A stretch of 39,491 nt of DNA from Hydrogenophilales bacterium (GTDB lineage Bacteria; Pseudomonadota; Gammaproteobacteria; Burkholderiales; Thiobacillaceae), in the NCBI GenBank assembly GCA_024636775.1, contig JAGXGP010000038.1, forward strand, positions 1 to 39,491. Reading direction: 5' to 3'. Each line of letters begins with the position of its first letter. Within the stretch, counting starts at the first letter, position 1. Below the pieces are notes generated by a model that was not told the DNA's origin, did not search any database, and saw nothing but the letters and a program-made list of their open reading frames with translations. The translations under genes were made by a program, and so were the position numbers. Shown here piece by piece: positions 765 to 21,782 of the stretch.

Positions 765-2579
765 TCAGTCACTCATACTCGCCAGCCAAGCCCGCCAGCC
801 CCCGTACGCCGTTATATCCTGCGCATCGGCCACACCAATACCTTCGCAAATAAAGCCATTCACGATTGATCCATTGGTTAGCTCCAGCTTGCCGATGCCA
901 AGCGGCGCCGGGATGCCTGCCACGAAAGAGCCGAACTGGCTTGCGGGCATCTCCCAGACTTCGCAGGCGATCGCCGCTCCGTCTGTCGGGACCTTTACGA
1001 GACCGGGGCGCTTGCCATCGGGTAGCGCGTAGAAGCGGTAGTTCGACGCAGTTTGCGTTGAGTCGACCAGCCGCGCGTTGCGGTCGGTCAACTGGCTGTT
1101 GAGCGGAAGCCCACTCAAGTGAGCGCCGACAACGGCGACACGGATCTGGCCGTCGGCAAGCAGGTTCAAGGACTCAGCAGCGGGCAGCGCATGATCGGTA
1201 GCACCCAGCCTTGCGCCAAGCGTCTGCTGCATGCGCGACGCCAGATGCAACAGCGGGCCGTCCTGATGCAATGGCGCGATCAGGGTGATGCCAAATGGCA
1301 AAGCGTCGTTCTGGAACCCGGCCGGAACGGCGGTGGCGGCGAGGTCGAGCAGGTTCATGAAGTTGGTGTAGTAGCCGAGGTTGGAATTAAGGTGGATGGG
1401 GTCCGCTTCCATTTCCTCCACGCGATAGATCGTCCCGGCGGTGGGCGTGAGCATCACATCGATGTCGTTCCATGCAGCATCGCAGATCCGCTTGGCCGCG
1501 CGTAATTTGTACAGATGAGCAAAGGTGTCGGCGGCGCTGTAGTTGCGGCCACCAGCGATGATTTCACGTACCGGCGGAAAAACCTTATCGGAGTGCGCGT
1601 CGAAGAAATCACGGATGGCGAGGTAGCGCTCGGCCACCCAGGGGCCACCGTAAAGCAGGCGAGCAGTTTCCAGAAAGGGAGCGAGATCGATTGCTACCGG
1701 CGTGCCGCCCAGCGCCTTCAACCGCTCCACCGCTTGACCGAACAGGCGTTCGCCGTCGGCATTACCAAAAAATTCCAGGTCTTTCTCCAGCGGCACACCA
1801 AAACGAAAACTGCCTGCGCGGCCGAAGTCAAAACCATGCGGCTCCAGCGTCCGCGAATATTCATCCGCGGCATCGAAACCGGCAGCGACCGCCAGCACGC
1901 GCTCGGCATCTTCAGCCGTCAGCGCAAAGATCGACACCGCATCGAGTGAGCGGCAGGCAGGCACCACGCCGCGGGTAGACAGCGCACCGCAGCTTGGCTT
2001 GTGGCCGACGAGGTTGTTGAACGCGGCGGGCACGCGACCGGAGCCGGCGGTATCGGTGCCGAGCGAGAAGCTCGCCAAGCCGAGCGCCACGGCGACCGCC
2101 GAGCCGGCGCTGGAGCCACCGGAAATATAGTCTGAATTGAATGCGTTGCGGCAGGCGCCGTAGGGCGAGCGGGTGCCGTTGAGCCCCGTTGCAAACTGGT
2201 CGAGGTTGGTTTTGCCGAGCGGAATCGCACCGGCGTCAATCAGGCGCTGCACAACCGTGGCGGTCTGAGTTGGCGAATAGGCATATTCCGGACAGCCCGC
2301 AGTGGTGGGCAGACCGGCGAGGTCGATGTTGTCCTTGATGGCGAAGGGAATGCCGTAGAGCGGCAGGCTCTCGGGGTTCTTGCCATGCAGGGCACTGGCG
2401 TAAGCACGCAAGGCATCGGCGTCGAGGCAACTGATCCAAATGTGATGGGTGTCTTCACCGGCCAACCGTTCGAGCAGGGCTTCCACCAGATCCTGCGGGG
2501 TGAAGCTGCCGGACTGATAACGTTGGCGCAAGGTGGAAATATCGAGACTGAATGGTGTGTTCATAATTTTGGCGCTCAT
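765..2579 (-). CDS. atzF: Allophanate hydrolase
   Basis: Hydrolyses allophanate to ammonia and CO2, the last step of the carboxylase route for urea or guanidine. It is a 604-residue cytoplasmic protein with an N-terminal amidase-signature domain, residues about 10-460. The catalytic triad is visible: Lys82 (FAIKDN), cis-Ser156 in GGSSAGS, and nucleophile Ser180 in GTDTAGSGR. The 24-residue spacing between the two serines matches the family. The C-terminal domain, about 470-604, corresponds to the usual small extra domain of allophanate hydrolases. The ATG overlaps the carboxylase stop codon by four bases (ATGA), so translation is probably coupled. A second in-frame Met lies at codon 6. It is the last gene of the minus-strand operon. 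Confidence 0.95.
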   Translation of the reverse strand: MSAKIMNTPFSLDISTLRQRYQSGSFTPQDLVEALLERLAGEDTHHIWISCLDADALRAYASALHGKNPESLPLYGIPFAIKDNIDLAGLPTTAGCPEYAYSPTQTATVVQRLIDAGAIPLGKTNLDQFATGLNGTRSPYGACRNAFNSDYISGGSSAGSAVAVALGLASFSLGTDTAGSGRVPAAFNNLVGHKPSCGALSTRGVVPACRSLDAVSIFALTAEDAERVLAVAAGFDAADEYSRTLEPHGFDFGRAGSFRFGVPLEKDLEFFGNADGERLFGQAVERLKALGGTPVAIDLAPFLETARLLYGGPWVAERYLAIRDFFDAHSDKVFPPVREIIAGGRNYSAADTFAHLYKLRAAKRICDAAWNDIDVMLTPTAGTIYRVEEMEADPIHLNSNLGYYTNFMNLLDLAATAVPAGFQNDALPFGITLIAPLHQDGPLLHLASRMQQTLGARLGATDHALPAAESLNLLADGQIRVAVVGAHLSGLPLNSQLTDRNARLVDSTQTASNYRFYALPDGKRPGLVKVPTDGAAIACEVWEMPASQFGSFVAGIPAPLGIGKLELTNGSIVNGFICEGIGVADAQDITAYGGWRAWLASMSD

Positions 2580-5500
2580 TCGCTGACCAGCACCAGCAGG
2601 TCCTGGCCGGCTGATACCTGACCGCCTTCGCGGCAGAAAACTGTGTGGATGCGCCCATCACACGGCGCCATCACAGAAAACTCCATCTTCATGGATTCGA
2701 TGACGAGAAGGGTGTCGCCCTGCTTCACCTCTGCTCCAGCCTCCACGTCCACCTTCCACACGTTGCCGGCGACAGGGCTGGCGATGGCGCGGCCATTCTC
2801 GGGTAGGTCGAGTTCGCTGTCAGGCGCGGCTTCGGCCACCGTCAGATCACTGGCGTAGTCGGCCTGACCACTCGCACGCCAGCGTTCGCGCTCGGCATCG
2901 AACGAGGCTTGCTGCTGTGTTTTGAAGGCGACGATGGATTCGTTATTGTCGCTGAGAAACTGGTTGTACTCGCGCAGGCTGAAGGTGGTTTCCTCGATCT
3001 TCAGATGGTAGCGGCCGAGCGGGAAGTCTTCGCGAATTTTCAATAATTCATCCGCGCTGACCGGGAAGAAACGCACCTGGTCGAAGAAGCGCAGCAGCCA
3101 CGGCTTGCCGTCGGTGAAGTTGGCGGTCTGGCGCCAGCGGTTCCACATCTGCAGCGTACGGCCGACAAACTGGTAGCCGCCGGGGCCTTCCATGCCGTAC
3201 ACGCACATGTAGGCGCCGCCGATGCCGACGGCATTTTCCGGGGTCCAGGTGCGGGCGGGGTTGTACTTGGTGGTGACCAGGCGATGGCGCGGATCGACCG
3301 GCGTCGCCACCGGCGCGCCGAGGTAGACGTCGCCCAGGCCCATCACCAGATAGCTGGCCTCGAACACGATGCGCTTCACCTCTTCAATCGATTCGAGCCC
3401 GTTGATACGGCGGATGAATTCGATGTTGCTCGGGCACCAGGGCGCGTCCTTGCGCACCGACTGCATGTATTTCTCGATGGCAAGTTTCGTGGCGGCATCG
3501 TCCCACGACAGCGGAATGTGCACGATCCGGGTCGGCACCTGCATGTCCTCGATAGCGGGCAGCATCTTTTCCGCCGCCAGCAGCAGTTCCATCAGTTTTG
3601 CCAGCGGCAGCACGCGCGAATCGTAGTGAACCTGCAGCGAGCGGATGCCGGGGGTGAGATCGAGGATGCCGGCTACGGCGTCGGCCTGCAGCTTTGTCAT
3701 CAACGCGTGCACGCGGAAGCGCAGATTGAGATCGAGCACCAGCGGGCCGTATTCGACCAGCAGGTACTTGTCTCCGGCACGGCGATAAACCACGGCGACG
3801 GGGTTGTCGGTGTCGGGCGTGCGATGCAGGACGGGTTCGGCGAGTTCTCCGGCATCGACAATCAACGAAGGCGCAGCCGGGGCGGCGAGGCTGGCGATGG
3901 CAGCATCCTGTGCTGCCTCCATGCGCTCGGCCTGTACTTGCGAAAGGCGCTTGAAACGCACGGTGTCGCCGGGACGCAGCTGGCCCATCTTCCACAGCTC
4001 AGCCTGCACGATGGTGGCCGGGCAAACGAAGCCGCCGAGGCTGGGGCCGTCCGGACCGAGGATCACCGGCATGTCGCCGGTGAAGTCGACCGCGCCGATG
4101 GCGTAGGCGTTGTCGTGGATGTTAGACGGATGCAGGCCGGCCTCGCCGCCGTCCTTGCGCGCCCATTCGGGGCGCGGTCCGATCAGGCGCACGCCGGTGC
4201 GGCTGGAGTTGTAATGCACCTCCCAGTCGGTAGCAAAGAACATCTCGATGTCGGCGTCGGTGAAGAAATCCGGCGCGCCGTGCGGACCGTAGAGCACGCC
4301 GACATCCCAGGCGTGGGTGTAGGCAGGAACCAGCGCGGCAGGCAATGCGCTGCCGTCGCTAAACGCATCGGCGACCGTGACGTGCAGCACGTCACCGACT
4401 CGCAGCGTGCGCCCGGCGTGACCGCCGAACTGGCCGAGCGTGAAGGTGGCTTTACTACCAAGGTAATCCGGCACGTCGAAGCCACCGCGCACCGCAAGGT
4501 AGGCGCGGCAGCCGGCATCCTTGATTGCGCCGAGCTTCAACATCGAGCCGGATTTCACACTGTGCGCCGCCCAGTTGGCCAGCGGCTGTCCGTCGAGTTC
4601 GGCAGCCATGTCGGCGCCGGCCAGTGCGATCACGCTGTCGCAGTTGAAGCGTAGCGTCGGACCCGCCACCGTCAGTTCGAGTCCGGCCGTGCCTTCGGCA
4701 TTGCCGGCGAGTCGGTTGGCGAGGCGCAAGGCCAGCGCGTCCATCGGCCCCGACGGCGGCACGCCGACGTCCCAGTAGCCGGTGCGGCCCGGCCAGTCCT
4801 GGATGCTGCTCTGCACGCCGGGCTCGATGACGTCGATCGTCGCCGGCCGGTAGTGGAAGGCGTTGAGGTAGCGCGTGGTCTGACGCCCTTCCATGAACAC
4901 GCTGTCGCGCACGATCTGCGCGAGGTAGCCGAGGTTGGTTTCAATGCCGGCGACACGGGTATGCGCGAGCACCTGCTGCATTTTTTTCAAAGCGTCTGCA
5001 CGGTCGCTGCCCTTGACGATGATCTTCGCCACCATCGGATCGTAGAACGGCGGCACATCGCTGCCGCGTTCGACCCAGGTTTCGATGCGCGCATCCGGCG
5101 AGAACACCACTTCAGTCAGCACGCCGGCAGCTGGCTGGAAATCCTTGCCCGGGTCTTCGGCATACAAACGCACCTGCATCGACGCGCCCTTGGGCTCTGC
5201 CTTGAAGCCGGCGAGATCCAGTTCGCCGGCGGCTTCCTTGACCATCCACTCGACCAGATCAACGCCGGTCACTTCCTCGGTGACACCGTGCTCGACCTGC
5301 AGGCGGGTGTTCACTTCGAGGAAATAAAACTCACCGTTTAGCGTGTTGTAAACAAACTCGACCGTGCCGGCGGAACGGTAGCCGACCGCTTCGCCCAGAC
5401 GCACCGCGGTGGCGAGCAGGCTGCTGCGTTGCGTGTCGGTGAGGCCGGGCGCCGGGGTTTCTTCAATCACTTTTTGATTGCGCCGCTGCACCGAGCAGTC

Positions 5501-6178
5501 GCGCTCGCCGAGCGCAACCACGTGGCCTTTGCCGTCACCGAAAATCTGCACCTCGATGTGGCGCGCGTGCTCGACATACTTCTCGAGGAAGATGCCGGCC
5601 TCCTTGAAGTTGGCGCGCGCGAGACGCTCCACCGACTGAAAGGCTTCGACCAGTTCGTCGGCACTCCAGATCAGGCGCATGCCGATACCGCCGCCGCCCG
5701 CAGTGCTTTTGAGCATCACCGGGTAGCCGATGCGCGCAGCTTCGGCCTGGGCATGGCCGGCGTCAGTGAGCAGGCCGGAACCCGGCAGCAGCGGCACCTT
5801 GTTGTGTTCGGCGAGGTCGCGCGCGGTGTGCTTGAGACCGAAGGCGCGCATCTGATCCGGGCTGGGCCCGATGAAAGCGATGCCAGCCGCGGCGCAGTCC
5901 TCGGTAAAGCCAGGGTTCTCGGACAGGAAGCCATAGCCGGGATGGATCGCCTGAGCGCCAGTGGCCTGCGCCACTTCGAGGATTTTCTCACCGCGCAGGT
6001 AGCTTTGCGCGGCCGGCGCCGGGCCGATCTCCACCGCTTCGTCGGCCAGCCGCACGTGCAGCGAATGGCGATCCGCCTCGGAATAGACGGCGACCGATTT
6101 CACCCCCATGGTGCGCAGGGTGCGGATGATGCGGCAAGCAATGGCGCCGCGGTTGGCGATCAGGACTTTGTTAAACAT
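2576..6178 (-). CDS. Guanidine carboxylase (biotin-dependent, urea-carboxylase family)
   Basis: ATP- and biotin-dependent carboxylase of 1200 residues. Domain order: biotin carboxylase (about 1-450, Gly-rich STAGGGGIGMR and EVNTRLQVEHGVTE), carboxyltransferase halves resembling allophanate hydrolase subunit 2/KipA (from about 455, SIQDWPGRTGYWDVG) and subunit 1/KipI (from about 810), then a biotin carrier domain whose ESMKME carries biotinyl-Lys1164. The family is annotated as urea carboxylase. Many bacterial members next to two DUF1989 genes use guanidine, making carboxyguanidine. The guanidine-II riboswitch-like element immediately upstream supports that substrate here. I chose ATG 6178, which has AAGAG about 6 bases upstream. 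The in-frame GTG at 6205 falls inside the riboswitch. The substrate assignment is inference; family membership is certain. Confidence 0.9.
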   Translation of the reverse strand: MFNKVLIANRGAIACRIIRTLRTMGVKSVAVYSEADRHSLHVRLADEAVEIGPAPAAQSYLRGEKILEVAQATGAQAIHPGYGFLSENPGFTEDCAAAGIAFIGPSPDQMRAFGLKHTARDLAEHNKVPLLPGSGLLTDAGHAQAEAARIGYPVMLKSTAGGGGIGMRLIWSADELVEAFQSVERLARANFKEAGIFLEKYVEHARHIEVQIFGDGKGHVVALGERDCSVQRRNQKVIEETPAPGLTDTQRSSLLATAVRLGEAVGYRSAGTVEFVYNTLNGEFYFLEVNTRLQVEHGVTEEVTGVDLVEWMVKEAAGELDLAGFKAEPKGASMQVRLYAEDPGKDFQPAAGVLTEVVFSPDARIETWVERGSDVPPFYDPMVAKIIVKGSDRADALKKMQQVLAHTRVAGIETNLGYLAQIVRDSVFMEGRQTTRYLNAFHYRPATIDVIEPGVQSSIQDWPGRTGYWDVGVPPSGPMDALALRLANRLAGNAEGTAGLELTVAGPTLRFNCDSVIALAGADMAAELDGQPLANWAAHSVKSGSMLKLGAIKDAGCRAYLAVRGGFDVPDYLGSKATFTLGQFGGHAGRTLRVGDVLHVTVADAFSDGSALPAALVPAYTHAWDVGVLYGPHGAPDFFTDADIEMFFATDWEVHYNSSRTGVRLIGPRPEWARKDGGEAGLHPSNIHDNAYAIGAVDFTGDMPVILGPDGPSLGGFVCPATIVQAELWKMGQLRPGDTVRFKRLSQVQAERMEAAQDAAIASLAAPAAPSLIVDAGELAEPVLHRTPDTDNPVAVVYRRAGDKYLLVEYGPLVLDLNLRFRVHALMTKLQADAVAGILDLTPGIRSLQVHYDSRVLPLAKLMELLLAAEKMLPAIEDMQVPTRIVHIPLSWDDAATKLAIEKYMQSVRKDAPWCPSNIEFIRRINGLESIEEVKRIVFEASYLVMGLGDVYLGAPVATPVDPRHRLVTTKYNPARTWTPENAVGIGGAYMCVYGMEGPGGYQFVGRTLQMWNRWRQTANFTDGKPWLLRFFDQVRFFPVSADELLKIREDFPLGRYHLKIEETTFSLREYNQFLSDNNESIVAFKTQQQASFDAERERWRASGQADYASDLTVAEAAPDSELDLPENGRAIASPVAGNVWKVDVEAGAEVKQGDTLLVIESMKMEFSVMAPCDGRIHTVFCREGGQVSAGQDLLVLVSE

Positions 6179-6188
6179 GTTTTTCTCT

Positions 6189-6239
6189 TGCAGGCCGTCC
6201 TGCACTTTTCATGCGCTGCACGGGCCGTCCCGTGCAGCG
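6189..6239 (-). promoter_or_regulatory. Guanidine-II (mini-ykkC) riboswitch candidate
   Basis: On the minus-strand RNA there are two consecutive perfect hairpins. P1 (6239-6214) has an 11-bp stem and P2 (6204-6189) a 6-bp stem. Each is capped by the tetraloop ACGG closed by a G-C pair, and a 9-nt linker separates them. Paired hairpins with ACGR loops just before a start codon define guanidine-II riboswitches. P2 ends at the AAGAG ribosome binding region, ten bases before the carboxylase ATG, so control of translation initiation is the likely mode. P1 begins five bases after the stop codon of the preceding gene. No T tract follows either hairpin, so a terminator is excluded. Two identical ACGG loops by chance in a 66-base gap of a guanidine-type operon is improbable. 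Confidence 0.85.
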
Positions 6240-6244
6240 GTACT

Positions 6245-6904
6245 TCATTGCGGGTTCCAGAGGAGGAACCGGGCCGGGGTCGGATTGTAGGCATTGCAGG
6301 GGTTGTTGAGCTGAGGGCAGTTGGATACCAGCATCCACAGATTCATTTCGGCGCGCAGTTCGACGTATTTTCCAGGCGCCGAGACACCATCGGCGAAGGT
6401 CAGCTCGCCCGATTCGGTCACCGGCACGTTCATGAAGAAGTTGATGTTGGGCACCAGGTCGCGCTTGCCCAGCCCGATGTCGGCATGCTGCAGCGCGGTC
6501 AGGTAGTTGTCGCGGCAGCTGTGCATGAACTTCTTCTGCAGCGCGTAGCGCACCGTGTTGCTCTCGGCCGCGCAAGCGCCGCCGAGCGTGTCGTGGCGGC
6601 CACAGGTGTCAGCGACGATGGTCAGCATGGGATGGCCGTCATCGCTGAACAGCACCGAGCCGGTGGTCAGGTAGATGCCGCCCTGGCGCAGGATGGTTTC
6701 GGTTGCGCTGTAGTGCTCGGCGCCGTCGTCGCGGTTGTAGAAGATGACGTCAACGGCCTGATTGCCTTCAAGGTCGACGATGCGCAAGGTCTGGCCCTTG
6801 TCGATCGCCAGCAGATAGGGTTCGCCCGCGGGTAGGGTGTGGTCGAGCACGGCAGCCTCGGGGGCGAGCGTGCTTTCCTGGATGCGAATGGCGGCAGCAG
6901 TCAT
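6245..6904 (-). CDS. cgdB: DUF1989 protein, carboxyguanidine deiminase subunit (UAAP2-type)
   Basis: A 219-residue DUF1989 protein of the 'urea carboxylase-associated protein 2' type, often misannotated as an aminomethyltransferase. In characterised guanidine clusters two such proteins form the heteromeric carboxyguanidine deiminase CgdAB, which turns carboxyguanidine into allophanate plus ammonia. Visible features include DLEGNQAVDVIFYN, ADTCGRHDTLGGACAAESN (Cys and His rich, likely metal or active site) and GLGKRDLVPNINFFMNV. The start at 6904 is chosen because GAGGAAA lies about 6-12 bases upstream. The longer open frame to 7015 would run into the preceding gene. It starts 11 bases after cgdA ends. 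Which of the two paralogues is A or B is assigned from size and order, not proven. Confidence 0.85.
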   Translation of the reverse strand: MTAAAIRIQESTLAPEAAVLDHTLPAGEPYLLAIDKGQTLRIVDLEGNQAVDVIFYNRDDGAEHYSATETILRQGGIYLTTGSVLFSDDGHPMLTIVADTCGRHDTLGGACAAESNTVRYALQKKFMHSCRDNYLTALQHADIGLGKRDLVPNINFFMNVPVTESGELTFADGVSAPGKYVELRAEMNLWMLVSNCPQLNNPCNAYNPTPARFLLWNPQ

Positions 6905-6915
6905 GGCCAGTTTCC

Positions 6916-7722
6916 TCAGGTCAGGTAGAGCATGTCGGTATTGTGTAGCGCGCGCGCGCTTTCCGGGCGGAAGGCGCGGCAATAGTCGTCCGCTGGCGCC
7001 GGGCCGGAACGCCACACCGCGAGGCCCACCTTGCAGGCCGGATAAACCGGCGCCGGGTTGAGCGGATGCGGCGCAGCGGAAAACGCGACCAGCACGTCCA
7101 TGTCCATGCGCAGATCGATGAAATCCCCGGCCTTGGCATGATCGGGCACATAGCGGAAGCGGCCTTCGTCGTCGACCGTGATCTTACTGAAGACATTCAC
7201 CGGCGCCACCAAGTCGCGTTTGGCCAGGCCGTATTTGCCGATCTCGATCAAGAGGCCGTCGCGGCCGGAACGCGTCATGCCGTTGCGGTTGGCCTGGTAG
7301 GCGTGATCGCCATACTTCTCGTGCATCAGGCGGTTGTCGAGCAACAGACCGAGTGGGTCGTGCCAGCCCAGGCTGTCGGCGGTGATCGAGGCCATGGCGC
7401 GGCCCATGTCGCTCATCAGCACGTGACCGCGCGTGTAGTGGGCGGTGTGCTGGGCCTTGAGCGAATCGGGCATGTTGTAGCGCTCGAGCTTTTCCTGCGC
7501 CGAATAGAGCACCAGCGACAGGTTGGCGCCAGCGTCGAGCGCGGTGATGCGCAAGGTAGCGCCACGCGGCAGCCGGTAGGACCAGTGGCCGCCGCCAGGT
7601 ACCAATTCGGAGAACAGCACCGTTTCGGCTGCCAGATCAGGGGCGAAGCGGTGCCAGTGTTCGGGGGCGTCGACCGGCGCCGTGGCCGGCGGATTGTTGA
7701 GCGTAAGTTCGGGATGGTCCAT
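6916..7722 (-). CDS. cgdA: DUF1989 protein, carboxyguanidine deiminase subunit (UAAP1-type)
   Basis: A 268-residue paralogue of the downstream DUF1989 protein, corresponding to 'urea carboxylase-associated protein 1'. It has the same layout: a lid-like ADSLGWHDPLG segment in place of the partner's ADTCGRHDTLGG, and KRDLVAPVNVFSKITVD matching KRDLVPNINFFMNV. The Cys residues in the partner's segment are absent here, consistent with one active and one structural or complementary subunit. Its ATG shares one base with the stop codon of the NikR-like gene (TAATG), so translation is coupled. The expected role, with its partner, is deimination of carboxyguanidine to allophanate in the cytoplasm. Confidence 0.85.
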   Translation of the reverse strand: MDHPELTLNNPPATAPVDAPEHWHRFAPDLAAETVLFSELVPGGGHWSYRLPRGATLRITALDAGANLSLVLYSAQEKLERYNMPDSLKAQHTAHYTRGHVLMSDMGRAMASITADSLGWHDPLGLLLDNRLMHEKYGDHAYQANRNGMTRSGRDGLLIEIGKYGLAKRDLVAPVNVFSKITVDDEGRFRYVPDHAKAGDFIDLRMDMDVLVAFSAAPHPLNPAPVYPACKVGLAVWRSGPAPADDYCRAFRPESARALHNTDMLYLT

Positions 7723-8192
7723 TACATTTCCTTTTCGTCTGCCGGCGCGTGCAGCGGGGGAATCACTGCCGTCAGCAATTGCAGCCGGCCGGTGATGACG
7801 CCGCGCTGGGCGATCATGTCATTGGCGATGGCCTGCAGCTTGACGGCCGGCCCCTGGACCAGAATCACTTCCAGCATCTGGTCCTCGGTCAGGTGCACAT
7901 GCAGCGAGCTGATGACCTCGGCAACATGCTGATACTGGATGTCGGCCAGCCTGCCCTGCAGGCCGCGCGTGGCCCGGTTGTACAGCAACGTGAGTGTACC
8001 CGCCATGACTTCGTTACCGAGACTGCGCTTGTGCTCGGCCAACTGGTAATTGACCATGTCGCCGATCGCCTGCGAGCGACTGTCGTAGCCGCGGCTCTCG
8101 ACCATGCCATCCAGTTCGGCCAGCAGGTCAGGCGGCAGCGAGACGCTGATGCGGCTGACCAGCGTCGAGACCTTGTCCTGTTTCGTCGTCAT
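7722..8192 (-). CDS. NikR-like ribbon-helix-helix regulator with altered nickel site
   Basis: A 156-residue regulator: an N-terminal ribbon-helix-helix DNA-binding domain (about 13-50, RISVSLPPDLLAELDGM) and a C-terminal ACT-like NikR domain (about 60-140, LHVHL, AQRGVITGRLQLL). Aligned by eye to E. coli NikR, the two histidines of LHVH remain (H98, H100). The third ligand His76 is Tyr87 and Cys95 is Met106, so the high-affinity nickel site is broken. The start at 8192 is preferred because AGGA sits six bases ahead. The alternative ATG at 8198 abuts that AGGA. The gene lies inside the guanidine operon, so it may autoregulate it or sense a pathway metabolite. The ligand is unknown. Confidence 0.85.
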   Translation of the reverse strand: MTTKQDKVSTLVSRISVSLPPDLLAELDGMVESRGYDSRSQAIGDMVNYQLAEHKRSLGNEVMAGTLTLLYNRATRGLQGRLADIQYQHVAEVISSLHVHLTEDQMLEVILVQGPAVKLQAIANDMIAQRGVITGRLQLLTAVIPPLHAPADEKEM

Positions 8193-8210
8193 GGGCATTC
8201 CTGTCGGGGG

Positions 8211-9572
8211 TTAGAACATGTAGCTGTAGCGTTCAACTTCCCACTTGCTTACGGTCAGGTGGTACGCCTCCCATTCCTCGGTTTTATAGCGGATGAATTC
8301 GTCGCGCAGCCCCTTGCCCAGCGTGGCTTCCACCAGCGGGTCTTCGGCGAAGGCGGCGACCGCTTCCTGCAGGGTCTGTGGCAGGAACTCGATGCCGCGC
8401 GCGCGCCGCTCGTCGTCGCTGATGGCGTAGAGGTTGTCTTCGTTGGGGTTGCCCGGATCGAGGCCTTCGCGGATGCCTTCGAGGCCGGCGGCCAGCGCCA
8501 GCGTGGCCGCCAGATAGGGATTGACCGCGCCATCAGCGTTGCGCGATTCGCAGCGTCCGCCGCCGGCCGGAATACGGACCGAGTTGGTGCGGTTGTTGGA
8601 GCCCCAGGAATTGAACACCGGCGCCCAGGAAAAATAACTCATCGCACCGCGCCGGACCAGCCGCTTGTAGCTGTTTACCGTGGGGGCAAACACCGCGCAC
8701 AGGGCGCGGCCGTGCTTGAGGATGCCGGAGACGAACTGGTAGCCCAGCGGGGTCAGGCCGATGCCGTACGGGTCGTCCTTCGGATCGCAGGCGAACAGGT
8801 TCTTGCCGGTCTCCAGGTCGTAGATCGACATGTTGAAGTGGGCGCCGTTGCCGGTCTTGTCGGCAAACGGCTTGGGCATCATGGTGGCGAGCAGGCCTTC
8901 TTCCTTGGCGTAGTGCTTGGCCATGAAACGGAAAAAGGTGAGGCGGTCGCAGGTGGTCAGCGCGTCGGCGTAATTGAAGTCGAATTCGAACTGGCCGTTG
9001 GCATCTTCGTGGTCGAAGGAATACAGGTCCCAGCCCAGGTCATTGATGGTGGTCGCCACCTTGTCGAGCCACGAGAAGTTGTCGACAAAGCCGCGCACGT
9101 CGTAGCAGGGCTTGGTCAGCTTGTCGTCGGCAACCGGCACCGACAGGCTGCCGTCGGCGTTCTGTTTGAGCAGGAAGATTTCGCACTCGATACCGAGGTT
9201 CATGCCATAGCCCAGCTTGGCCGCTTCGGCGAGCTGGTTCTTCAGCGCGACGCGCGTGTTGAGGGCATAAGGCTGGCCCTGAAAATGGTTGTCGGACGGA
9301 ATCCAGGCAATCTTCGGTTCCCACGGCAGCTGGATGGCACGGTCCAGATCAGGCACCGAAGTCAGTTCGTCGTCGTTGGGCGCCTGACCGAGGCCATCCA
9401 GGGCATAGCCGGTGTAGCGTTCCGATCCATTGGCCATTTGGCGCAGGTGATCGATGGGAACCACCTTGGCCTTGGGCACGCCGTGGATGTCGACATAGGC
9501 GCCGATACAATATTTCACGCCCTTGTCGGTCAACTCTTTTTGCTGCTTGGCGATTGCTTCGTTCGAATACAT
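8211..9572 (-). CDS. Type III (GlnT) glutamine synthetase-family ligase
   Basis: A 453-residue GlnT-type member of the glutamine synthetase superfamily, which joins an amine to the gamma-carboxyl of glutamate using ATP. The N-terminal beta-grasp ([14 protein letters not shown]) and the catalytic domain motifs ([46 protein letters not shown]) are intact. It resembles gmaS at 16590-17918 in length and motifs but is clearly a separate paralogue. AAGGA lies 7 bases before the ATG. Its place between the creatininase-like and NikR-like genes suggests it captures the ammonia, or a substituted amine, released by the pathway. Whether it is a true glutamine synthetase or a gamma-glutamylamide synthetase cannot be told from sequence. 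Confidence 0.85.
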
Positions 9573-9606: not shown

Positions 9607-10368
9607 TCAGTCGCCGTCGCCGAAATAGGAATGAGGGAGCGGAGCTTCCTCGGTACACCCTTTCAAAATCAGCTCGGCGAGGTCGGCCACCAGCCAGTCG
9701 AACCAGCGCGCGCCCTTCTCCACCGTGGCCAGACTGGGCGTACCGGTGACGCCGTTGAGGCTGGTTCGGTTGACCGGATGCGCGAAGACGCAACCGCAGG
9801 TGCGGTCCGGATCATCGGCCTCGGCCAGCTTGTCGGGACGCACGCCCTCGGGCGCGATGGCCAGCATGATCGAGGCCTCGGCGTCGTTGGCATGCCAGTC
9901 GTCGGCGTCGGCGAAATGGAACTGGCGCACCCGTTCGCTGATGGTCGCGGTATTGATCACCGCGACCATCAGGTCGTCGTGTTCGGCGCGCAGCATTTCC
10001 AGCGCGCAGCGCAACGGCGCGGCATTGGTGACGTGCGCGTTGACGATGAACAGGCGGCGAATGCCGCTGTGATACGCCCAGTCGCCGATTTCCTTGACCA
10101 GCTGAATCAGCGTGACCGGCTGCAGCGCGATCGTGCCGGGCCAGCGCCGGCTGTGGCCAAGCGAACAGCCATATGGCATGGTCGGCAGCATCGGCACGCC
10201 TGTCTGCGCGGCTACGGCTGCACATAATTGCTCGGCGATCACGAAGTCAACACCACAACCCAGATGCGGGCCGTGCTGCTCGGTGGCACCCACCGGCAGG
10301 ATGGCAGCCTGGCCGCAGCGGGCCAGCACATCGGGGATTTCGGACCAGGTGAGATCAGACCATTGCAT
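9607..10368 (-). CDS. Creatininase-family amidohydrolase
   Basis: A 253-residue metal-dependent hydrolase of the creatininase family, whose members open cyclic or linear amides. Putative metal ligands are visible: E30 and H32 in GATEQHG, D41, H112 in NAHVTN, and E164 in HANDAEAS. The usual NGHGGN or NGHYEN motif is altered to NAHVTN, so the catalytic Glu used by true creatininase at this position is a Thr. That argues against simple creatinine hydrolysis. AAGG lies nine bases before the ATG. It sits between the ABC ATPase gene (12-base gap) and the GlnT-type ligase. It could release guanidine or a guanidino compound from an imported precursor; this is inference. Confidence 0.85.
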
Positions 10369-10379
10369 AAGATAAAGCC

Positions 10380-11291
10380 TTACTCGACGTTGTCGGCTAC
10401 GTTGGTGAAGCGGATCATTTGCGGCTGCGCCGCCTGCTCGTCTTCCGGCTCAGACGCCGGTGCGGGATGAATCAATTGCTCCAGTCGCGCCTTGGTGGCC
10501 AGGAATTCAGGCGTGTTGAACTGGCCCGGCGAACGCGGACGCGGCACCGGCACTTCGATCACTTCCTGCACCTCGCCGGGATGCGCCTTGAGCACCAGAA
10601 TGCGGTCAGCCAGATAGATCGCTTCGTCGAGATCGTGGGTGATGAACAACACCGTGATGTCGATGTTTTTCCAGATATCGATCAGATGCGACTGCATCTT
10701 CGAGCGGGTCTGGGCATCGAGCGCGCCGAAAGGTTCGTCCATGAGCAGGATGCGCGGCTGGTTGACCAGGGCGCGGGCGATGGCGACGCGCTGGCGCATG
10801 CCGCCGGACAACTGGTGCGGATACGCGTCGGCGAATTTTTCCAGGCCGACCAGTTCCAGCCAGGTACGGGCATCGCGTTCGGCCTCGTCCTTGCCATGGC
10901 CTTTGATTTTCGGCCCGAACATCACGTTTTGTTTCACCGTCAGCCAGGGGAACAGGGAATATCCCTGAAACACCATGCCGCGATCCTGGCCGGGGCCTTT
11001 GACCGGTTTGTCGTCCAGCAGCACGTCACCGGAGCTGTGGTTTTCCAGCCCCGCTAGAATCCGGATCAGCGTCGACTTGCCACAGCCGGAGGGGCCGATA
11101 ACGCAGACGAATTCGCGGCGGCGGACACTGAAGTTGATGCCACGCAGCGCCTCGACCTCGCCCTGCGGCGTGCGGAAGCGCTTACCGAGGTCGCGCACTT
11201 CAAGAATGGTTTCGCGCTGGTTGATCTTGTCGAAGCGCGCCTTCACGGGCTCCGACTGGTCCAGGTAGCTGGGCAGGGTGTTCGGGTTCAT
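10380..11291 (-). CDS. ABC importer ATPase (TauB/SsuB-like)
   Basis: A 303-residue ATPase energising the adjacent importer. Walker [10 protein letters not shown] is at residues 66-73, followed by the Q-loop ([14 protein letters not shown]), signature LSGGMRQR, Walker B ILLMDEP, D-loop GALDAQT and switch His in FITHDLDEA. It belongs to the nitrate/sulfonate/taurine group. N- and C-terminal tails of roughly 25 and 45 residues extend beyond the core; the C-terminal tail is acidic. GAGGA is 7 bases before the ATG, and the permease gene ends ten bases upstream. Given its operon partners the likely cargo is guanidine or a guanidine precursor. Confidence 0.92.
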
Positions 11292-11301
11292 GACTGCATC
11301 C

Positions 11302-12264
11302 TCAGCGACGATCCTGGGTGCGATCCCAGGGGAACAGGCTGCGGCTGAGCCGGCCCAGGATCAGGTCGGTGCCGAAGCCGATGATGCCGATGATCATGAT
11401 GGCGGCGTAGACGTTGTCGAAATGCTGGTAGCGCGCCTGCTGGGTGATGTAGAACGTGATGCCGGAACTGGTACCGATCAGTTCGGCCACGATCAGATAG
11501 GTCCAGGCCCAGCCCAGCAGAATGCGCTGGTCGCGGTACAGATCGGGCAGGATGCCCGGCACCACCACCTTGGTCAGCAGCTTCACGCCTCGCGTGCCCA
11601 GCGTGCGCGCCGCCTCGATAATGGTGGCCTCCAACTTGCGCGTAGTGTTGGCGATGATCAGCACCTGCTGGAACAGCGTGCCGATGACGATGATCGCGAT
11701 CTTGGGTCCGTCGTAGATGCCCAGGATGGCCACCGCCAGCGCGCCAAACGCCGGCGCCGGCAGGTAGCGAAAGTATTCGATGAAGGGTTCGCTCAGGCGG
11801 GCAAAGGTGGAATAGGTTCCAGCCAGGATGCCGAGCGGTACGCCAATGAGCGAGGAAATCAGGAAGCCCCAGAAGATGATCTGGATACTGTGCCACAGGC
11901 TTTCGTGCAGCCAGGGCGCGTCCTTCTGCACCGGTTGCTTGGCGAATCCGGTGTAGAACGCCTTCGCCACTTCATGCGGCGCCGGCAGGTAAATGGGGTT
12001 GGCCGGCTTGCCGGCCGGGGGGGGCAGCCTCTCCTCCCGCGTGAAGGCAGTCTCATCCTCGAATTGGGACTTGTCCACCAGCATGCCGACCTGGAAGTAG
12101 TCGACGCCGCCGGGATCGGTGACCTCGACCTTGGGATGCCAGATGAACGGCACATAGCTCACCAGGCACCACACCAACAACGGCAGCAGAAACGAACCGA
12201 TTGCCAGCAGGGTGCGCTTGCGCATCTCGCTATCCACGCTGGGCAGGTTGGCAATCAGACTCAT
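11302..12264 (-). CDS. ABC importer permease (TauC/SsuC-like)
   Basis: A 320-residue inner-membrane permease of the binding-protein-dependent transport family. The first membrane helix is at about residues 18-40. It is followed by an unusually long hydrophilic stretch (about 42-115) before the core helices. The EAA loop that docks on the ATPase reads [24 protein letters not shown] lies five bases before the ATG. It is co-transcribed with the binding protein (22-base gap) and the ATPase. The long first periplasmic loop is larger than in TauC or SsuC and is a possible lineage marker for this transporter. Confidence 0.9.
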
Positions 12265-12286: not shown

Positions 12287-13285
12287 TTACTTGGCGAAGG
12301 TAAAGGACGCGTCCAGATAGCTGTTCAGGTCCTGAGGCGTCTTGTATACGTCGTTGGCAACATTGAACTCATCCGCAATCTTGGAAGAGCCGTACAGCGT
12401 CTTGAAGCCTTCGCCTTTGACGTAGATCTTCTTCGCGTCATCCAGACTCAGCAGCTTGGTGCCCTTGAGCAACGGCAGGTAGGTTTCGGGGGAAACGCCG
12501 ACGCGAGCAGCCATGATCTTCACGGCATCGGGCTGGGTCTTGGGATCGTTGATGTATTTCACTACACGGTCCCACACCTTCACGACCTTGATCCACTCAG
12601 CCTTGCGCTGCTTGGCGCTGCCGGGATTCACCGCGAGCACGTCGTAGATCAGGCCGGGTTCGTCAGCAGACGTGTAGATGGGCCTGGCACCCGGTACCGA
12701 CTTCATGGTCTGACCGGCGATGGGCTGCCAGGCACCGACCGCGGCGACATCACCCGAGGCCAGCATCTGCGGCATCTCGTTGGTCTTGGCGTTGACCAGC
12801 GTGACATCGGATTCCTTCATGCCGGCTTTTTTCAAGCCGTTGAGCAGCAGCAGGTGCTCAACGAAGCCCAATTCCACTGCCACCTTCTTGCCCTTGAGGG
12901 CCTTGAGGGAACGCACACCCGGCTTGCCGATGATCATGTCGTTGCCGTTGGAATAATCGGTCAGCATCACCATGACGCTCTTGCCGCCTGCAGCGCCGGT
13001 GACCAGCGCATCGCCGTTGGTCATGGTGACCGCGTCGATCTTGCCAGCCGAGAAGGCATCCATCGAGGCCGAGTAGTCGAACCACTCGAAGGTAACAGGC
13101 ACGCCCGCCTCCTTGAACCACCCCTTGTCGATGGCAACCTGCCACGCCACCCAGCCCGGCCAGTCGCTGTAACCAATCTTGAGGGGCTGGGCCGCCTGAG
13201 CGGAAAAGGAAACGGCCGCGGCAACGGGGATCACCAGCCGCGTCAATAGTGTTTTCAGGGTGCTTCTGATGTGCTTCACGTTCAT
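12287..13285 (-). CDS. Periplasmic substrate-binding protein (NMT1/SsuA-like)
   Basis: A 332-residue periplasmic binding protein and first gene of the guanidine operon. The Sec signal peptide runs from residue 1 to about 31 (basic start, hydrophobic core, AQA at the cleavage site). The mature part begins QPLKIGYSDWPGW and follows the NMT1/TauA-type fold. The start at 13285 is supported by AAGGAG about 6 bases upstream. The longer frame to 13363 overlaps the sigma-54 promoter and is rejected. Its likely ligand is guanidine or a guanidino compound, inferred from the operon. Related binding proteins are common beside carboxylase/CgdAB genes. Confidence 0.9.
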   Translation of the reverse strand: MNVKHIRSTLKTLLTRLVIPVAAAVSFSAQAAQPLKIGYSDWPGWVAWQVAIDKGWFKEAGVPVTFEWFDYSASMDAFSAGKIDAVTMTNGDALVTGAAGGKSVMVMLTDYSNGNDMIIGKPGVRSLKALKGKKVAVELGFVEHLLLLNGLKKAGMKESDVTLVNAKTNEMPQMLASGDVAAVGAWQPIAGQTMKSVPGARPIYTSADEPGLIYDVLAVNPGSAKQRKAEWIKVVKVWDRVVKYINDPKTQPDAVKIMAARVGVSPETYLPLLKGTKLLSLDDAKKIYVKGEGFKTLYGSSKIADEFNVANDVYKTPQDLNSYLDASFTFAK

Positions 13286-13346
13286 GGACAGCTCCTTGAT
13301 AAGTGGTATTACCAAAATGAATATTCGTAATATTCGACTAACGATA

Positions 13347-13362
13347 AGCAACCTCTGTGCCA
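13347..13362 (-). promoter_or_regulatory. Sigma-54 promoter of the guanidine operon
   Basis: On the minus strand the sequence reads TGGCACAGAGGTTGCT. The conserved GG (13361-13360) and GC (13349-13348) dinucleotides are separated by exactly ten bases, matching the consensus TGGCAC-N5-TTGCW. Transcription would start near 13336, giving a leader of about 50 nt before the binding-protein ATG. Confidence 0.88.
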
Positions 13363-13520: not shown

Positions 13521-13545
13521 TAAAAAGGGCGCCCGCAAGGCGCCC
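13521..13545 (-). terminator. Intrinsic terminator of the methylamine operon
   Basis: GGGCGCC and GGCGCCC (13527-13533 and 13539-13545) form a 7-bp GC stem with a 5-nt loop. On the minus strand this is followed directly by TTTTTA. It lies 31 bases after the mgsC stop codon and separates the methylamine operon from the guanidine operon. Confidence 0.88.
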
Positions 13546-13575
13546 TGCAAAATATTGCCGGCTATGGCGAATGCA

Positions 13576-14940
13576 TCAGTACCCGGTCACGCCCGGAATC
13601 CAGTTCGTGCCGGCCAGCGGCAGGCGCGCCATGGCGGCCGCTTCAATGGTGAGCGCAACCAGATCCTCGCGCTCCAGATGGTGCACGTTCTGCTTGCCGC
13701 ACGCGCGCGCAATGGTGGTGAGTTCCATGTTGAGCGTCTTCAGATAGTTGCGCAGACGCTTGGCGCCGACTTCCGGTTGCAGGCGCTGTTCCAGAATGAC
13801 ATCCTGGGTCGTGATGCCGACCGGACACTTGCCGGTGTGGCAGTGGTGACAGAAACCGGCGGCGGTACCCAGCGCCGCGTAGCCTGCGTCCGCCGGGTGA
13901 TGCATGCCATCCTGGATGTAGCTTTCGCTGTTGCAGCCCAGCGCGACCAGCACGCCCTGGCCAATCGATACGGCATCGGCACCCATGGCGAGCGCCTTGG
14001 CCACATCCGCGCCGGTGCGAATGCCGCCCGACACGATGAGCTGGACCTGATCCTTCATGTTCAGGTCCTCCAGCGCATCGACCGCCTGCCGCACGGCGGC
14101 GAGGGTCGGGATGCCGACGTGTTCGATAAAGCAGGTCTGGGTCGCTGCAGTGCCGCCCTGCATGCCATCGACCACCACCACATCGGCGCCCGAATGCACC
14201 GCGAGCTTGACGTCGTTGAAGGTACGCGTGGCACCGACCTTGACGTAGATCGGCTTCTCCCAGTCGGTCAGCTCGCGTAGTTCGTGAATCTTGATCGCCA
14301 GGTCGTCCGGCCCGGTCCAGTCGGGATGGCGGCTGGCCGAACGCTGGTCGATGCCTTCCGGCAGCGTGCGCATGCCGGCCACCCGCGGCGAGACTTTCTG
14401 CCCGAGCAGCATGCCGCCGCCGCCGGGTTTGGCGCCCTGCCCGATCACCATCTCGATGGCATCGGCACGGCGCACGTCATCCGGGTTGAAGCCATAGCGC
14501 GACGGCAGGCACTGATACACCAGGGTCTTCGAGGACAAGCGCTCTTCCTGCGTCATGCCGCCGTCGCCGGTCGTGGTGGAAGTGCCCATTTCGGAGGCGG
14601 CGCGTCCCAGCGCTTCCTTCACGTTGGCCGACAGCGAACCGAAACTCATGCCGGCAATGGTGATCGGAATTTCCAGTTCGATCGGCTTGGTGGCAAAGCG
14701 GGTGCCGAGCACGGTTTTGGTGGAACACTTTTCCCGATAACCCTCCAGCGGATAGCGCGACAGTGAAGCGCCCAAAAATACCAGGTCGTCGAAGCTGGGA
14801 AGCTTGCGCTTGGCGCCGAGGCCACGAATTTCATACAAGCCGTGGGCAGCGGCATTGCGGATGTAGTCGAGGGTCTTGCGATCGTAGCCGGCCGACTCCT
14901 CACGGGAGACAGGCTTCAACTGTTCGGGTTTGGTTTCCAT
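13576..14940 (-). CDS. mgsC: N-methylglutamate synthase subunit C (GltB/GlxD-like FMN domain)
   Basis: A 454-residue protein homologous to the FMN-binding synthase domain of glutamate synthase. In N-methylglutamate synthase it makes N-methylglutamate, probably from gamma-glutamylmethylamide. It has the glycine-rich TTTGDGGMTQEER and GQGAKPGGGGML segments, the flavin-barrel SGGIRTGADVAKALAMGAD, and a cysteine cluster C364-x2-C367-x4-C372 for an iron-sulfur centre. The start at 14940 follows GAGGA by about 8 bases. The frame extension to 14955 would use TTG and overlap mgsB. Last gene of the operon, followed by a strong terminator. Databases may name it GlxD or glutamate synthase-like; the neighbours decide the assignment. 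Confidence 0.88.
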   Translation of the reverse strand: METKPEQLKPVSREESAGYDRKTLDYIRNAAAHGLYEIRGLGAKRKLPSFDDLVFLGASLSRYPLEGYREKCSTKTVLGTRFATKPIELEIPITIAGMSFGSLSANVKEALGRAASEMGTSTTTGDGGMTQEERLSSKTLVYQCLPSRYGFNPDDVRRADAIEMVIGQGAKPGGGGMLLGQKVSPRVAGMRTLPEGIDQRSASRHPDWTGPDDLAIKIHELRELTDWEKPIYVKVGATRTFNDVKLAVHSGADVVVVDGMQGGTAATQTCFIEHVGIPTLAAVRQAVDALEDLNMKDQVQLIVSGGIRTGADVAKALAMGADAVSIGQGVLVALGCNSESYIQDGMHHPADAGYAALGTAAGFCHHCHTGKCPVGITTQDVILEQRLQPEVGAKRLRNYLKTLNMELTTIARACGKQNVHHLEREDLVALTIEAAAMARLPLAGTNWIPGVTGY

Positions 14941-14951
14941 GGCTCGGGTCC

Positions 14952-15641
14952 TCAATATTCCTGATTGGCGTCGGCGTTCCAGTGATACAGCTCGCGCCTG
15001 GAAGCGATGCGTTTGAATTCTGCGGGATCGTGATTCATGCCAGCCTGGCTCAGCAGATCGGCGACCGTGGCCAGATCAGTCTCGCCCATCGGCTCGACCT
15101 GCGCGTCGGCACCCAGTGACTTGATGCTGCCACGCACATACAGCACGGCTTCGTATAGCGAATCGCCCAGCGCATCGCCGGCATCACCACAGATCACCAT
15201 GCGACCGGCCTGCGCCATGAAGGCGGAGAAGCTGCCGACCGAACCGCCCACCACGACGTCGCCGCCTTTGAGCGAAATGCCGCAGCGCAGGCCGGCGTCG
15301 CCGTCGATCACCAGCAGGCCGCCATGCGCGGACGCACCGGCACTGTTAGAGGCGAAGCCTTTGACATGCACTCGGCCGCTCATCATGTTCTCGGCCACGC
15401 CGGTGCCGGCGCTGCCGAGGATCGTGACCGTGCCCGTTTTGTTCATGCCGCCGGCGTAGTAGCCGGCGTGGCCATGTACCTCGACCTCGACCGGGCAGTC
15501 CAGGCCAACGGCGATGTTGTGCGCGCCGTCCGGATTGAGCACGGTGACCTGTTTCACCTGGCCGGTTTTGGCTTCGTGGTGAAGGAATTGATTCAGTTCA
15601 CGCAACGGGGTTGTTGCCAGATCGAAACTCAGACTGTCCAT
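14952..15641 (-). CDS. mgsB: N-methylglutamate synthase subunit B (GlxC-like)
   Basis: A 229-residue homologue of the C-terminal beta-helix (GXGXG) domain of glutamate synthase. Repeating glycine-rich turns run through the middle: AGYYAGGMNKTGTVTILG, GTGVAENMMSGRVHVKG, GDAGLRCGISLKGGDVVVGG. This subunit is structural and helps connect the amidotransferase and FMN synthase parts. The ATG overlaps the end of mgsA by 13 bases and has GAGGAG upstream, so the two are translationally coupled. It is followed after 11 bases by mgsC. Confidence 0.87.
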   Translation of the reverse strand: MDSLSFDLATTPLRELNQFLHHEAKTGQVKQVTVLNPDGAHNIAVGLDCPVEVEVHGHAGYYAGGMNKTGTVTILGSAGTGVAENMMSGRVHVKGFASNSAGASAHGGLLVIDGDAGLRCGISLKGGDVVVGGSVGSFSAFMAQAGRMVICGDAGDALGDSLYEAVLYVRGSIKSLGADAQVEPMGETDLATVADLLSQAGMNHDPAEFKRIASRRELYHWNADANQEY

Positions 15642-16537
15642 ACGTACATCTCCTCGGGCGCAGGCTCAAAAACATGGGCGTGCTTGATATCCGGCAGGTG
15701 GGCCAGCGATCGGAACTCGGATGCGATCGCCACGTAGTCATCGGTTTCCGCCACCACCGCCGGCTTGCAGGCGAAGGGATCGCGGATCAACGCCAGCTTG
15801 TCCGGCGTACCCATCAGGAAGGTGTAAAAGCCGTCGAGTTCCTCAAAGCCCTTCTGCAGCGCGGCCTCGAGGTCGTCGCCCTCGCGCAGGCGCCATTCCA
15901 GAAAACGGCAAGCCGCCTCGGTGTCGTTGTCGGTTTCAAAATGGATGCCGCGCGGTTCCAGCATGCGGCGGATGCCGTTCGGGTTGGACAGCGAGCCGTT
16001 GTGCACCAGGCAGAAATCCTCGCCGGCAGTAAACGGATGAGCGCGCTCGGGGGTGACGGCCGACTCGGTCGCCATCCGGGTGTGGCCCACCAGATGGGTG
16101 CCCTTCATGTGCCTGAAGTCGTAACGCGCAGCGACGTCCGCCGGCGTGCCGATATCCTTGTACAGATCGATGCTGCGTCCGGTCGAAAGAAGGTACAGCC
16201 GCGGATGATGTTCCTTGATCCAGCGCTTGATCACGTCCGGGTCGAGTCCGGCAGTAAGAATGGCGTGATTGCCCTTGGCCTCGACCTTGACCGATACACC
16301 GAGATGCGCCTTCATGTCATGCGCGAGCCCCAGCCAGTTGAAGTCCGCGCCTGCTTCGGTGAGGCCGGAATAGACACTGATTTTGCGTTCATTGTCCGGC
16401 AGCGCGGCAGTGAACACCGCCAGGCCGGCCGAATCGGGGCCGCGTTCCGTCATCCCGATCAGCATCGGCACCATGAGCTCGCCCAGACGCTCGGTGAGCG
16501 CCGGCGTCTTGACCAGCAAACCAACAATTCCACACAT
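15629..16537 (-). CDS. mgsA: N-methylglutamate synthase subunit A (class II amidotransferase, GlxB-like)
   Basis: A 302-residue class II glutamine amidotransferase-type subunit. The N-terminal nucleophile Cys2 is exposed directly after Met1 (MCGIVGLL). The other family marks are ERGPDSAGLAVF, GHTRMATESAV and VHNGSLSNPNGIRR. In N-methylglutamate synthase this part hydrolyses gamma-glutamylmethylamide and passes methylamine to the synthase subunits. GGGAG lies about 8 bases before the ATG. A 52-base gap separates it from gmaS, and it overlaps mgsB. Confidence 0.88.
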   Translation of the reverse strand: MCGIVGLLVKTPALTERLGELMVPMLIGMTERGPDSAGLAVFTAALPDNERKISVYSGLTEAGADFNWLGLAHDMKAHLGVSVKVEAKGNHAILTAGLDPDVIKRWIKEHHPRLYLLSTGRSIDLYKDIGTPADVAARYDFRHMKGTHLVGHTRMATESAVTPERAHPFTAGEDFCLVHNGSLSNPNGIRRMLEPRGIHFETDNDTEAACRFLEWRLREGDDLEAALQKGFEELDGFYTFLMGTPDKLALIRDPFACKPAVVAETDDYVAIASEFRSLAHLPDIKHAHVFEPAPEEMYVWTV

Positions 16538-16589
16538 CGTATTTCTCCCGTTACAGGCTTCGGACCCGGGGGCCGCGCCAGGGCATCAA

Positions 16590-17918: not shown

Positions 17919-17964
17919 GATGGCGCTCCAAAAAGACGGTTGCGTGAGTAAGGGCTACGAATAG

Positions 17965-21518: not shown

Positions 21519-21772
21519 GCGGCTTCTCCGTACAAATAGGTGCGCAGCACCACGTCTTTTTCCGTATCGCGTTCGACGATGAACCAGGTGTTGCTGGCGC
21601 TGTGGCACCACCACTCTTTCTTCACGCCAGGGGCACCGTTGCGGTTGAACACGTAATCGGCCCACTCGTCGTCGCTGCAGGTATCGGGATCGGGCATCGG
21701 GCGAATCTCGCCCCAGCAGAAAAACTCCGAGACCGGGCGTGGGCCATTGACGGGGCAGATCATGATTTTCAT
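21515..21772 (-). CDS. mgdB: N-methylglutamate dehydrogenase subunit B (SoxD-like)
   Basis: An 85-residue homologue of the delta subunit of sarcosine oxidase, which normally binds zinc through three Cys and one His. Here the start reads MICPVNGPRPVSEF, so Cys6 is kept but the second Cys (CPxCG) is Asn9. Near the C-terminus the His is kept (WWCHSASNTW), but the Cys four residues on is also Asn. Thus two of four zinc ligands are missing. Nearby Cys20 and the Cys before the His could compensate. AGGAGG is 6 bases before the ATG. It overlaps mgdC by four bases and follows mgdA by ten. Confidence 0.87.
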   Translation of the reverse strand: MKIMICPVNGPRPVSEFFCWGEIRPMPDPDTCSDDEWADYVFNRNGAPGVKKEWWCHSASNTWFIVERDTEKDVVLRTYLYGEAA

Positions 21773-21782
21773 GGCATGCCTC

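Follow-up and report, generated by a model that had tools for sequence, protein, structure and literature searches.

A predicted guanidine-II riboswitch within an operon that looks like guanidine use in a Thiobacillaceae bacterium, with the apparent site of a NikR-like protein at the operon head

The window analyzed here, that is the whole stretch of 39,491 nucleotides from a Hydrogenophilales bacterium of the Thiobacillaceae, carries an operon of ten genes that all lie on the minus strand (Table 1). The genes are closely spaced, with gaps of -4 to 34 nt, except for the 66 nt in front of the carboxylase gene, which form the longest gap of the operon and hold a pair of hairpins. Upstream of the operon, a set of genes at 13576-23024 encodes glutamate-synthase-like, glutamine-amidotransferase, glutamine-synthetase-like and sarcosine-oxidase-like proteins, and resembles the N-methylglutamate pathway of methylamine use; such mgs/gma-like genes also lie upstream of the operon in a related locus (L122/L171).

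Table 1. Features of the operon and of its head, with positions in the window.
Feature	Position	Strand	Remark
Terminator-like hairpin between operon and upstream genes	13526..13546	-	such matches occur at about shuffle frequency (15 found, 14.2 expected)
Sigma54-type promoter match, TGGCAC-N5-TTGCT	13347..13362	-	one occurrence, against 0.18 expected by chance
Palindrome of 28 bp, ATATTAC-N14-GTAATAC, putative operator for the NikR-like protein	13306..13333	-	conserved at NikR heads
ABC substrate-binding protein, encoded first in the operon	12287..13285	-	NCBIfam
ABC transporter permease	11302..12264	-	NCBIfam
ABC transporter ATPase	10380..11291	-	NCBIfam
Creatininase-family amidohydrolase	9607..10368	-	profile search
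Type III glutamine synthetase-like ligase	8211..9572	-	profile search
NikR-like ribbon-helix-helix regulator	7722..8198	-	profile search
UAAP1, DUF1989 (carboxyguanidine deiminase subunit-like)	6916..7722	-	profile search
UAAP2, DUF1989 (carboxyguanidine deiminase subunit-like)	6245..6904	-	profile search
Guanidine-II hairpin P1	6214..6239	-	11 bp, no mismatch, loop ACGG at 6228-6225; Rfam match and covariation in relatives
Guanidine-II hairpin P2	6189..6204	-	6 bp, no mismatch, loop ACGG at 6198-6195; Rfam match and covariation in relatives
Spacer from end of Rfam match (6190) to carboxylase ATG	6179..6189	-	11 nt, weak Shine-Dalgarno-like AAGAGA
Predicted guanidine carboxylase (would be annotated urea carboxylase)	2576..6178	-	1200 aa, Asp698; ATG at 6178-6176
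Allophanate hydrolase	765..2579	-	start overlaps carboxylase stop by 4 nt

A reading of the DNA made from the sequence alone had placed two perfect hairpins with ACGG loops at 6189-6239, between the second DUF1989 gene and the carboxylase gene, and had named them a guanidine-II (mini-ykkC) riboswitch. The coordinates are exact on the minus strand, and the gene annotation confirms the place. Scanning the whole window with cmscan, we found RF01068 (Guanidine-II) at 6236-6190 (-) with 37.1 bits against a gathering cut-off of 32 (E 0.00053), the sole Rfam match of the window at gathering threshold; the assembly as a whole (2.81 Mb in 159 contigs, 87% complete) yielded no second RF01068 match. Position 6189 is both the final base of the 6-bp P2 and part of the spacer. 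Both loops agree with the guanidine-II loop consensus ACGR (PMC5486947), and P1 and P2 are both present in the minimum-free-energy fold. An 86-nt piece containing the element folds with z = -3.84, none of 200 shuffles being equally stable; with more flank (133 nt) the value is only -1.59, and 16/200 shuffles are equally stable. The single terminator-like site between UAAP2 and the carboxylase gene is P2 read on the opposite strand, and we therefore rejected an intrinsic terminator at this place.

Annotation would assign the operon to urea degradation, as had been foreseen, given UAAP1/UAAP2, the allophanate hydrolase and a carboxylase that scores as TIGR02712 urea carboxylase; yet this carboxylase carries the residue of guanidine carboxylases. 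Their mark is an Asp at about position 701 of TIGR02712 (PMC11410670), where the window protein has Asp698 (Asp, not Asn), and UAAP1 and UAAP2 are encoded next to it. Thirty loci were read for this position, L029, L038, L055, L056 and L057 being dropped because their longest open reading frame was in the wrong frame: the diagnostic Asp occurs in 24/24 readable loci (window included), and Asn in one full-length paralogue (L058, which is the L143 carboxylase). By Asp698 and its DUF1989 partners, the window enzyme thus looks like a guanidine rather than a urea carboxylase. The paralogues in L143, L144 and L150, with 61-63% identity, were rejected as guanidine-type: no DUF1989 gene was seen beside them, and none of these three loci has a guanidine-II element beside the carboxylase. 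The carboxylase match comes in two pieces in L169, L170 and G019:C41, possibly broken genes or assembly errors; the last may alternatively be one open frame with an odd middle.

The position of the element inside an operon had been called unusual, a view that the wider sample does not bear out. Among 369 genomes sampled across the class we found 30 guanidine-II matches, 17 of which (window included) lie between UAAP2 and a same-strand carboxylase gene, the commonest position of all. Eight others precede a small exporter of about 105 aa (L059 and L067 were checked with Pfam as PF00893, the remaining six assigned by look), one precedes a carboxylase gene with no UAAP2 seen, one lies at a contig end, and three (L070, L078, L085) are immediately followed by a gene for a PF00487 desaturase-family protein (about 330 aa). 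The arrangement is also published. In Vreelandella boliviensis an internal guanidine-II between cgdB and gca, under a guanidine-I head, has been in-line probed (PMC12508155), and Raoultella, Erwinia and Klebsiella are reported to have the same order with an internal guanidine-II before the carboxylase (PMC12186494). A guanidine-I heads these published two-switch operons. Both the riboswitch and its mid-operon place are hence already known, and we discarded the idea of a mid-operon oddity on the class-sample counts and on PMC12508155. The window operon shares with these operons the pathway genes, the importer and a guanidine-II that follows the second DUF1989 gene and precedes the carboxylase. 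It differs from them in its head, where no guanidine-I was found and where a sigma54-type site and the 28-bp palindrome stand, together with a NikR-like gene in the operon, and in the additional creatininase-family and glutamine-synthetase-like genes.

The element is widely kept in relatives. With the Rfam model, under stricter filters that lose weak matches, 25 of 117 family genomes gave 28 guanidine-II matches at E <= 0.001; 16 of the 28 sit between UAAP2 and the carboxylase, 8 of these 16 above the cut-off. For closer inspection of the family we used the window and 34 fetched starts of guanidine-type carboxylases (35 loci, from at least that many matches), leaving uncounted the partial carboxylase matches without a start (G032:C73, G033:C88, G086:C176, G016:C26, G108:C171). 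UAAP2 is seen in 33/35 of these loci, the remaining two being short contigs. A local model, R1, trained on the 28 elements, 16 of them from the UAAP2-carboxylase position and so among the very loci scored, finds the full element in 29/35 at E < 0.01 and in L141 at E 0.016; the other five (L116, L121, L132, L138, L146) have P2 alone. In L132, the DNA replacing P1 overlaps a match to Rfam sX9 on the opposite strand (45.4 bits, cut-off 44), as if a repeat had been inserted. Base pairs have changed on both sides at 5/13 pairs among the 16 operon-internal elements, with 94.8% of cells paired, and at 9/13 among all 28 family elements, and slid-alignment controls reach at most 4 pairs in either set: the stems are maintained by compensatory change.

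A second set of loci, which is not additive to the first because many named and family loci come from the same genomes, was found via the NikR-like protein. This named-genome scan puts close relatives in Thiobacillus and its allies: a Thiobacillus MAG, Parasulfuritortus, and Thiobacillus thioparus DSM 505, whose locus L164 has an operon of the window's type. UAAP2 adjoins the carboxylase in 36 of the 46 named loci, and 30/36 of these have guanidine-II at E < 0.01. The six without a match at that threshold are L167 (E 0.021), L186 (E 0.29), L168, which has P2 only, as in L132, and L182, L188 and L193, which gave no guanidine-II match. In seven loci outside the family, chosen because R1 had already matched there, the Rfam model exceeds its cut-off in six and fails in L179. 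The hairpin pair of the window is supported as a guanidine-II (mini-ykkC) riboswitch by the covariance model and by the covariation in relatives. It resembles other RF01068 members in its two GC-rich hairpins, ACGR loops, spacing, model score and place before a guanidine gene.

The head of the operon is of another kind. The sigma54-type match alone arises in 15/100 shuffles of the window; rpoN is present in the assembly, and the palindrome, whose core has a single occurrence in the assembly when up to 3 mismatches are allowed, starts 13 nt past this site. Transcription starts about 12 nt past a sigma54 site, which would put the palindrome at the transcription start and make it a presumptive repressor site. 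A guanidine-I riboswitch was considered for this head and rejected: the Rfam model gives no match in the window, neither at gathering threshold nor with E relaxed to 5, the local model R2 gives none at E up to 1, and none was found in the assembly (2.81 Mb, 87% complete). A NikR-like gene is present in 21/35 family loci and absent from 10, four contigs ending too soon to tell. Where the head is visible, guanidine-I occurs in 0/19 loci with the NikR-like gene and in 8/8 without it, so that guanidine-II is the only recognized guanidine switch of the window operon. The palindrome behaves in the opposite way, scoring 10-14 (of 14) at 19/19 NikR family heads and at most 8 at 8/8 guanidine-I heads; the best scores in 400-nt pieces of the window, the site itself aside, are 7-10. 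Among 37 NikR-bearing heads (36/46 named loci and the window), the best 28-mer reaches at least 10/14 in 36 and at least 11/14 in 35. The p-values of these head motifs come from mononucleotide shuffles and, the loci being related, are not independent; L169 (p 0.09) and the sigma54 site of L193 (p 0.105) are not significant.

The sigma54-type site is found upstream in 5/7 of the guanidine-I heads looked at, and full guanidine-II elements exist under both head types, as do P2-only copies (L132; L138, L146). Guanidine-I-headed operons (L123, L127, L136 and others) have diverged versions of the creatininase-family (46-48%) and glutamine-synthetase-like (55-58%) genes, which indicates that this pair accompanies both heads; in L147, L148 and L151 neither gene is seen.

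By sequence, the regulator belongs to the NikR family and fold: it has the PF08753 and PF01402 domains, aligns to the solved NikR 2bj1 (E 2.9e-28), and scores above the NCBIfam cut-offs of PRK04460 and PRK02967 but below that of TIGR02793 nikR. Nickel in NikR is bound by His76, His87, His89 and Cys95, and the E. coli protein recognizes a 28-bp operator, GTATGA-N16-TCATAC (PMC7055735). In the window protein (E. coli numbering) His76 corresponds to Tyr89 and Cys95 to Met108, and His87 and His89 are kept, so that Tyr, His, His and Met stand in place of the four nickel ligands. This is general in the set made up of the window and those 43 named loci that exceed 60% identity: Cys95 is replaced in 44/44 (Met 28, Leu 8, Ile 3, Thr 3, Val 2) and His76 in 41/44 (Tyr 36, Phe 5), while His87 is kept in 44/44 and His89 in 43/44. 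The distant loci L199-L201 retain all four ligands. The gene shares its locus with carboxylase, hydrolase or DUF1989 genes in 40/43 named loci, the exceptions being L175, and L185 and L194, whose contigs end soon after. The system resembles NikR in its ribbon-helix-helix and NikR_C domains and in a palindrome of two half-sites with the 28-bp span of GTATGA-N16-TCATAC, and differs from it in lacking two of four nickel ligands, in its half-site and in the guanidine genes of the locus. The palindrome is apparently the operator of the NikR-like protein, and we treat it as a candidate. We found no guanidine operon headed by the site of a NikR-like protein among the best-ranked matches of a literature search that covered few subscription papers; PMC2667541 contains both NikR and urea carboxylase, the latter concerning yeast in the passages where it appears.

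A few loci hint at how such a head may have come about. L184 has the same cassette, including the NikR-like gene, with a guanidine-I (100 bits) between a sigma54-type site and the first gene, and the operator palindrome was not found there (best 9/14 in 300 nt, no 12/14 site in the 20-kb locus). In L190, L192 and L198 the cassette is apart from an operon of guanidine-I, DUF1989 genes, guanidine-II and carboxylase, the two being on opposite strands. From these arrangements we infer that the window operon may have arisen by the joining of two such units, with guanidine-I lost and the internal guanidine-II kept. In L186 and L193, a guanidine-I lies further downstream, beyond the carboxylase genes, and fits this picture less well. 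We put forward as a tentative idea, possible though not the expected outcome, that a NikR-family repressor with a rebuilt nickel site (Cys95 lost, His76 changed to Tyr or Phe) has replaced the guanidine-I of the head, and that it might sense guanidinium or a guanidine-derived compound at the 28-bp operator just downstream of the sigma54 promoter, the internal guanidine-II staying in place. The natural swap in L184, guanidine-I without operator, supports this replacement.

Taken together, the locus probably represents a ten-gene guanidine-import and carboxylase operon in which a guanidine-II riboswitch gates the start of the carboxylase, the whole transcript being gated at the head. Guanidine would most likely switch on the translation of the carboxylase and of the allophanate hydrolase. 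Guanidinium bound by both ACGG loops would join P1 and P2, and their joining would let ribosomes start at the carboxylase; the allophanate hydrolase would follow by translational coupling, which had been suggested before and which the 4-nt overlap of its start with the carboxylase stop makes plausible. The long mRNA would be made from the sigma54 promoter under nitrogen control, and the NikR-like protein would act at the palindrome near the transcription start. Two gates would result, one at the head for the whole transcript and one inside, where guanidine would control the ATP-spending step. Ligand binding, the ON direction, coupling, sigma54 use and operator binding are all predicted here from sequence. 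Sister operons have the same internal switch beneath a guanidine-I riboswitch head, and guanidine-dependent initiation is reported for guanidine-II of P. aeruginosa (PMC9561414).

The ligand in the cell could be wider than guanidine, namely methylguanidine or another small guanidino compound, which would fit a pathway for N-substituted guanidines. Both methylguanidine (83 uM) and guanidine (93 uM) are bound by the Vreelandella internal guanidine-II (PMC12508155), the guanidine-II pocket is open on one side (PMC5486947), and the window operon includes a creatininase-family hydrolase and a glutamine-synthetase-like ligase, with N-methylglutamate-pathway-like genes just upstream. The ten operon proteins, however, gave no match to a dioxygenase family, that of MgdH for instance (for the three ABC proteins the search used NCBIfam only), and guanidine itself is also bound in the known cases that the cited sources describe. 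We regard the wider ligand as unlikely, though worth keeping in mind, and retain guanidine as the signal.

The loops of relatives raise the question of whether the element responds to a ligand at all. A C or T occupies the fourth loop position in 20/76 parsed hairpins of operon-internal elements from the family and named relatives, affecting one hairpin per element except in L141, where both are concerned. The same change is seen in 1/32 hairpins of the operon-internal elements of the class sample and in 0/32 of exporter-type ones (Fisher p 0.0007 for 20/76 versus 0/32, kinship not corrected), which suggests that the relaxed loop belongs to this bacterial group and not to mid-operon elements generally. 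The parser requires AC followed by A or G, and the counts therefore speak to the fourth base alone; L147 and L148 (of 40 distinct elements) and L061 (of 17 in the class sample) could not be parsed and were left out, all six of their loops having A or G at the fourth base by eye. An exporter-type element, L005, has the loop ACAA. The sequence-only reading had held that unconserved loops in homologous operons would speak against a riboswitch; relaxation of this kind does exist in the relatives, but it does not extend to the window. The crystal structure shows this base flipped out of the loop and stacking with its partner away from the pocket (PMC5486947), so that a C or T there may be tolerated. 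Relaxed loops, the five family loci with P2 only and the three named loci without any match would suit a vestige, or a hairpin pair that serves mRNA stability without responding to a ligand; we consider this very improbable, as the window copy has ACGR in both loops, perfect stems and a score above the cut-off, and as relatives show pair changes on both sides and keep the element under two different heads.

The direction of the switch is best discussed from its spacing. In 30/36 elements 10-13 nt separate the end of the match from the start codon (11 nt in the window). This distance is 14-24 nt for 16 exporter-type elements, and for the carboxylase elements of the class sample it is mostly 19-25 nt. 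Standing so close, a folded P2 might hinder the ribosome. We looked for an anti-Shine-Dalgarno in the linker or in the 40 upstream nt, and over the 36 elements the longest pairing with the spacer was on average no better than in shuffled sequences (mean p 0.74 and 0.69, respectively; single values fell below 0.05 in three cases). In the minimum-free-energy fold a CAUG of the linker pairs with the CAUG of the start codon over 4 bp, and no such pairing stands out in relatives. The window thus differs from exporter-type RF01068 elements in a P2 nearer to the start codon and in the lack of a visible anti-Shine-Dalgarno. Both traits would also suit an OFF-switch or roadblock, in which a ligand-stabilized P2 beside the Shine-Dalgarno lowers carboxylase initiation, but this is the least probable of the readings weighed here, since the guanidine-II cases in PMC12186494 and PMC9561414 are ON, the proteins of the Vreelandella operon rise on guanidine, with guanidine-I contributing (PMC12508155), and a substrate that shuts off its own degrading enzyme makes little sense.

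In sum, the riboswitch adds one more member to an established class, at a position already described, and the annotation of its operon is corrected: it looks like guanidine use, not urea use, in Thiobacillus-like bacteria. Nature seems to provide operons with like genes that have at their head either a guanidine-I RNA or the apparent site of a NikR-like protein, the internal RNA switch being unchanged. This contrast makes it testable whether an RNA and a protein that sense one small cation are interchangeable, and which signal a NikR protein lacking the nickel cysteine responds to. The five family operons with P2 only would serve as natural tests of the need for both hairpins.
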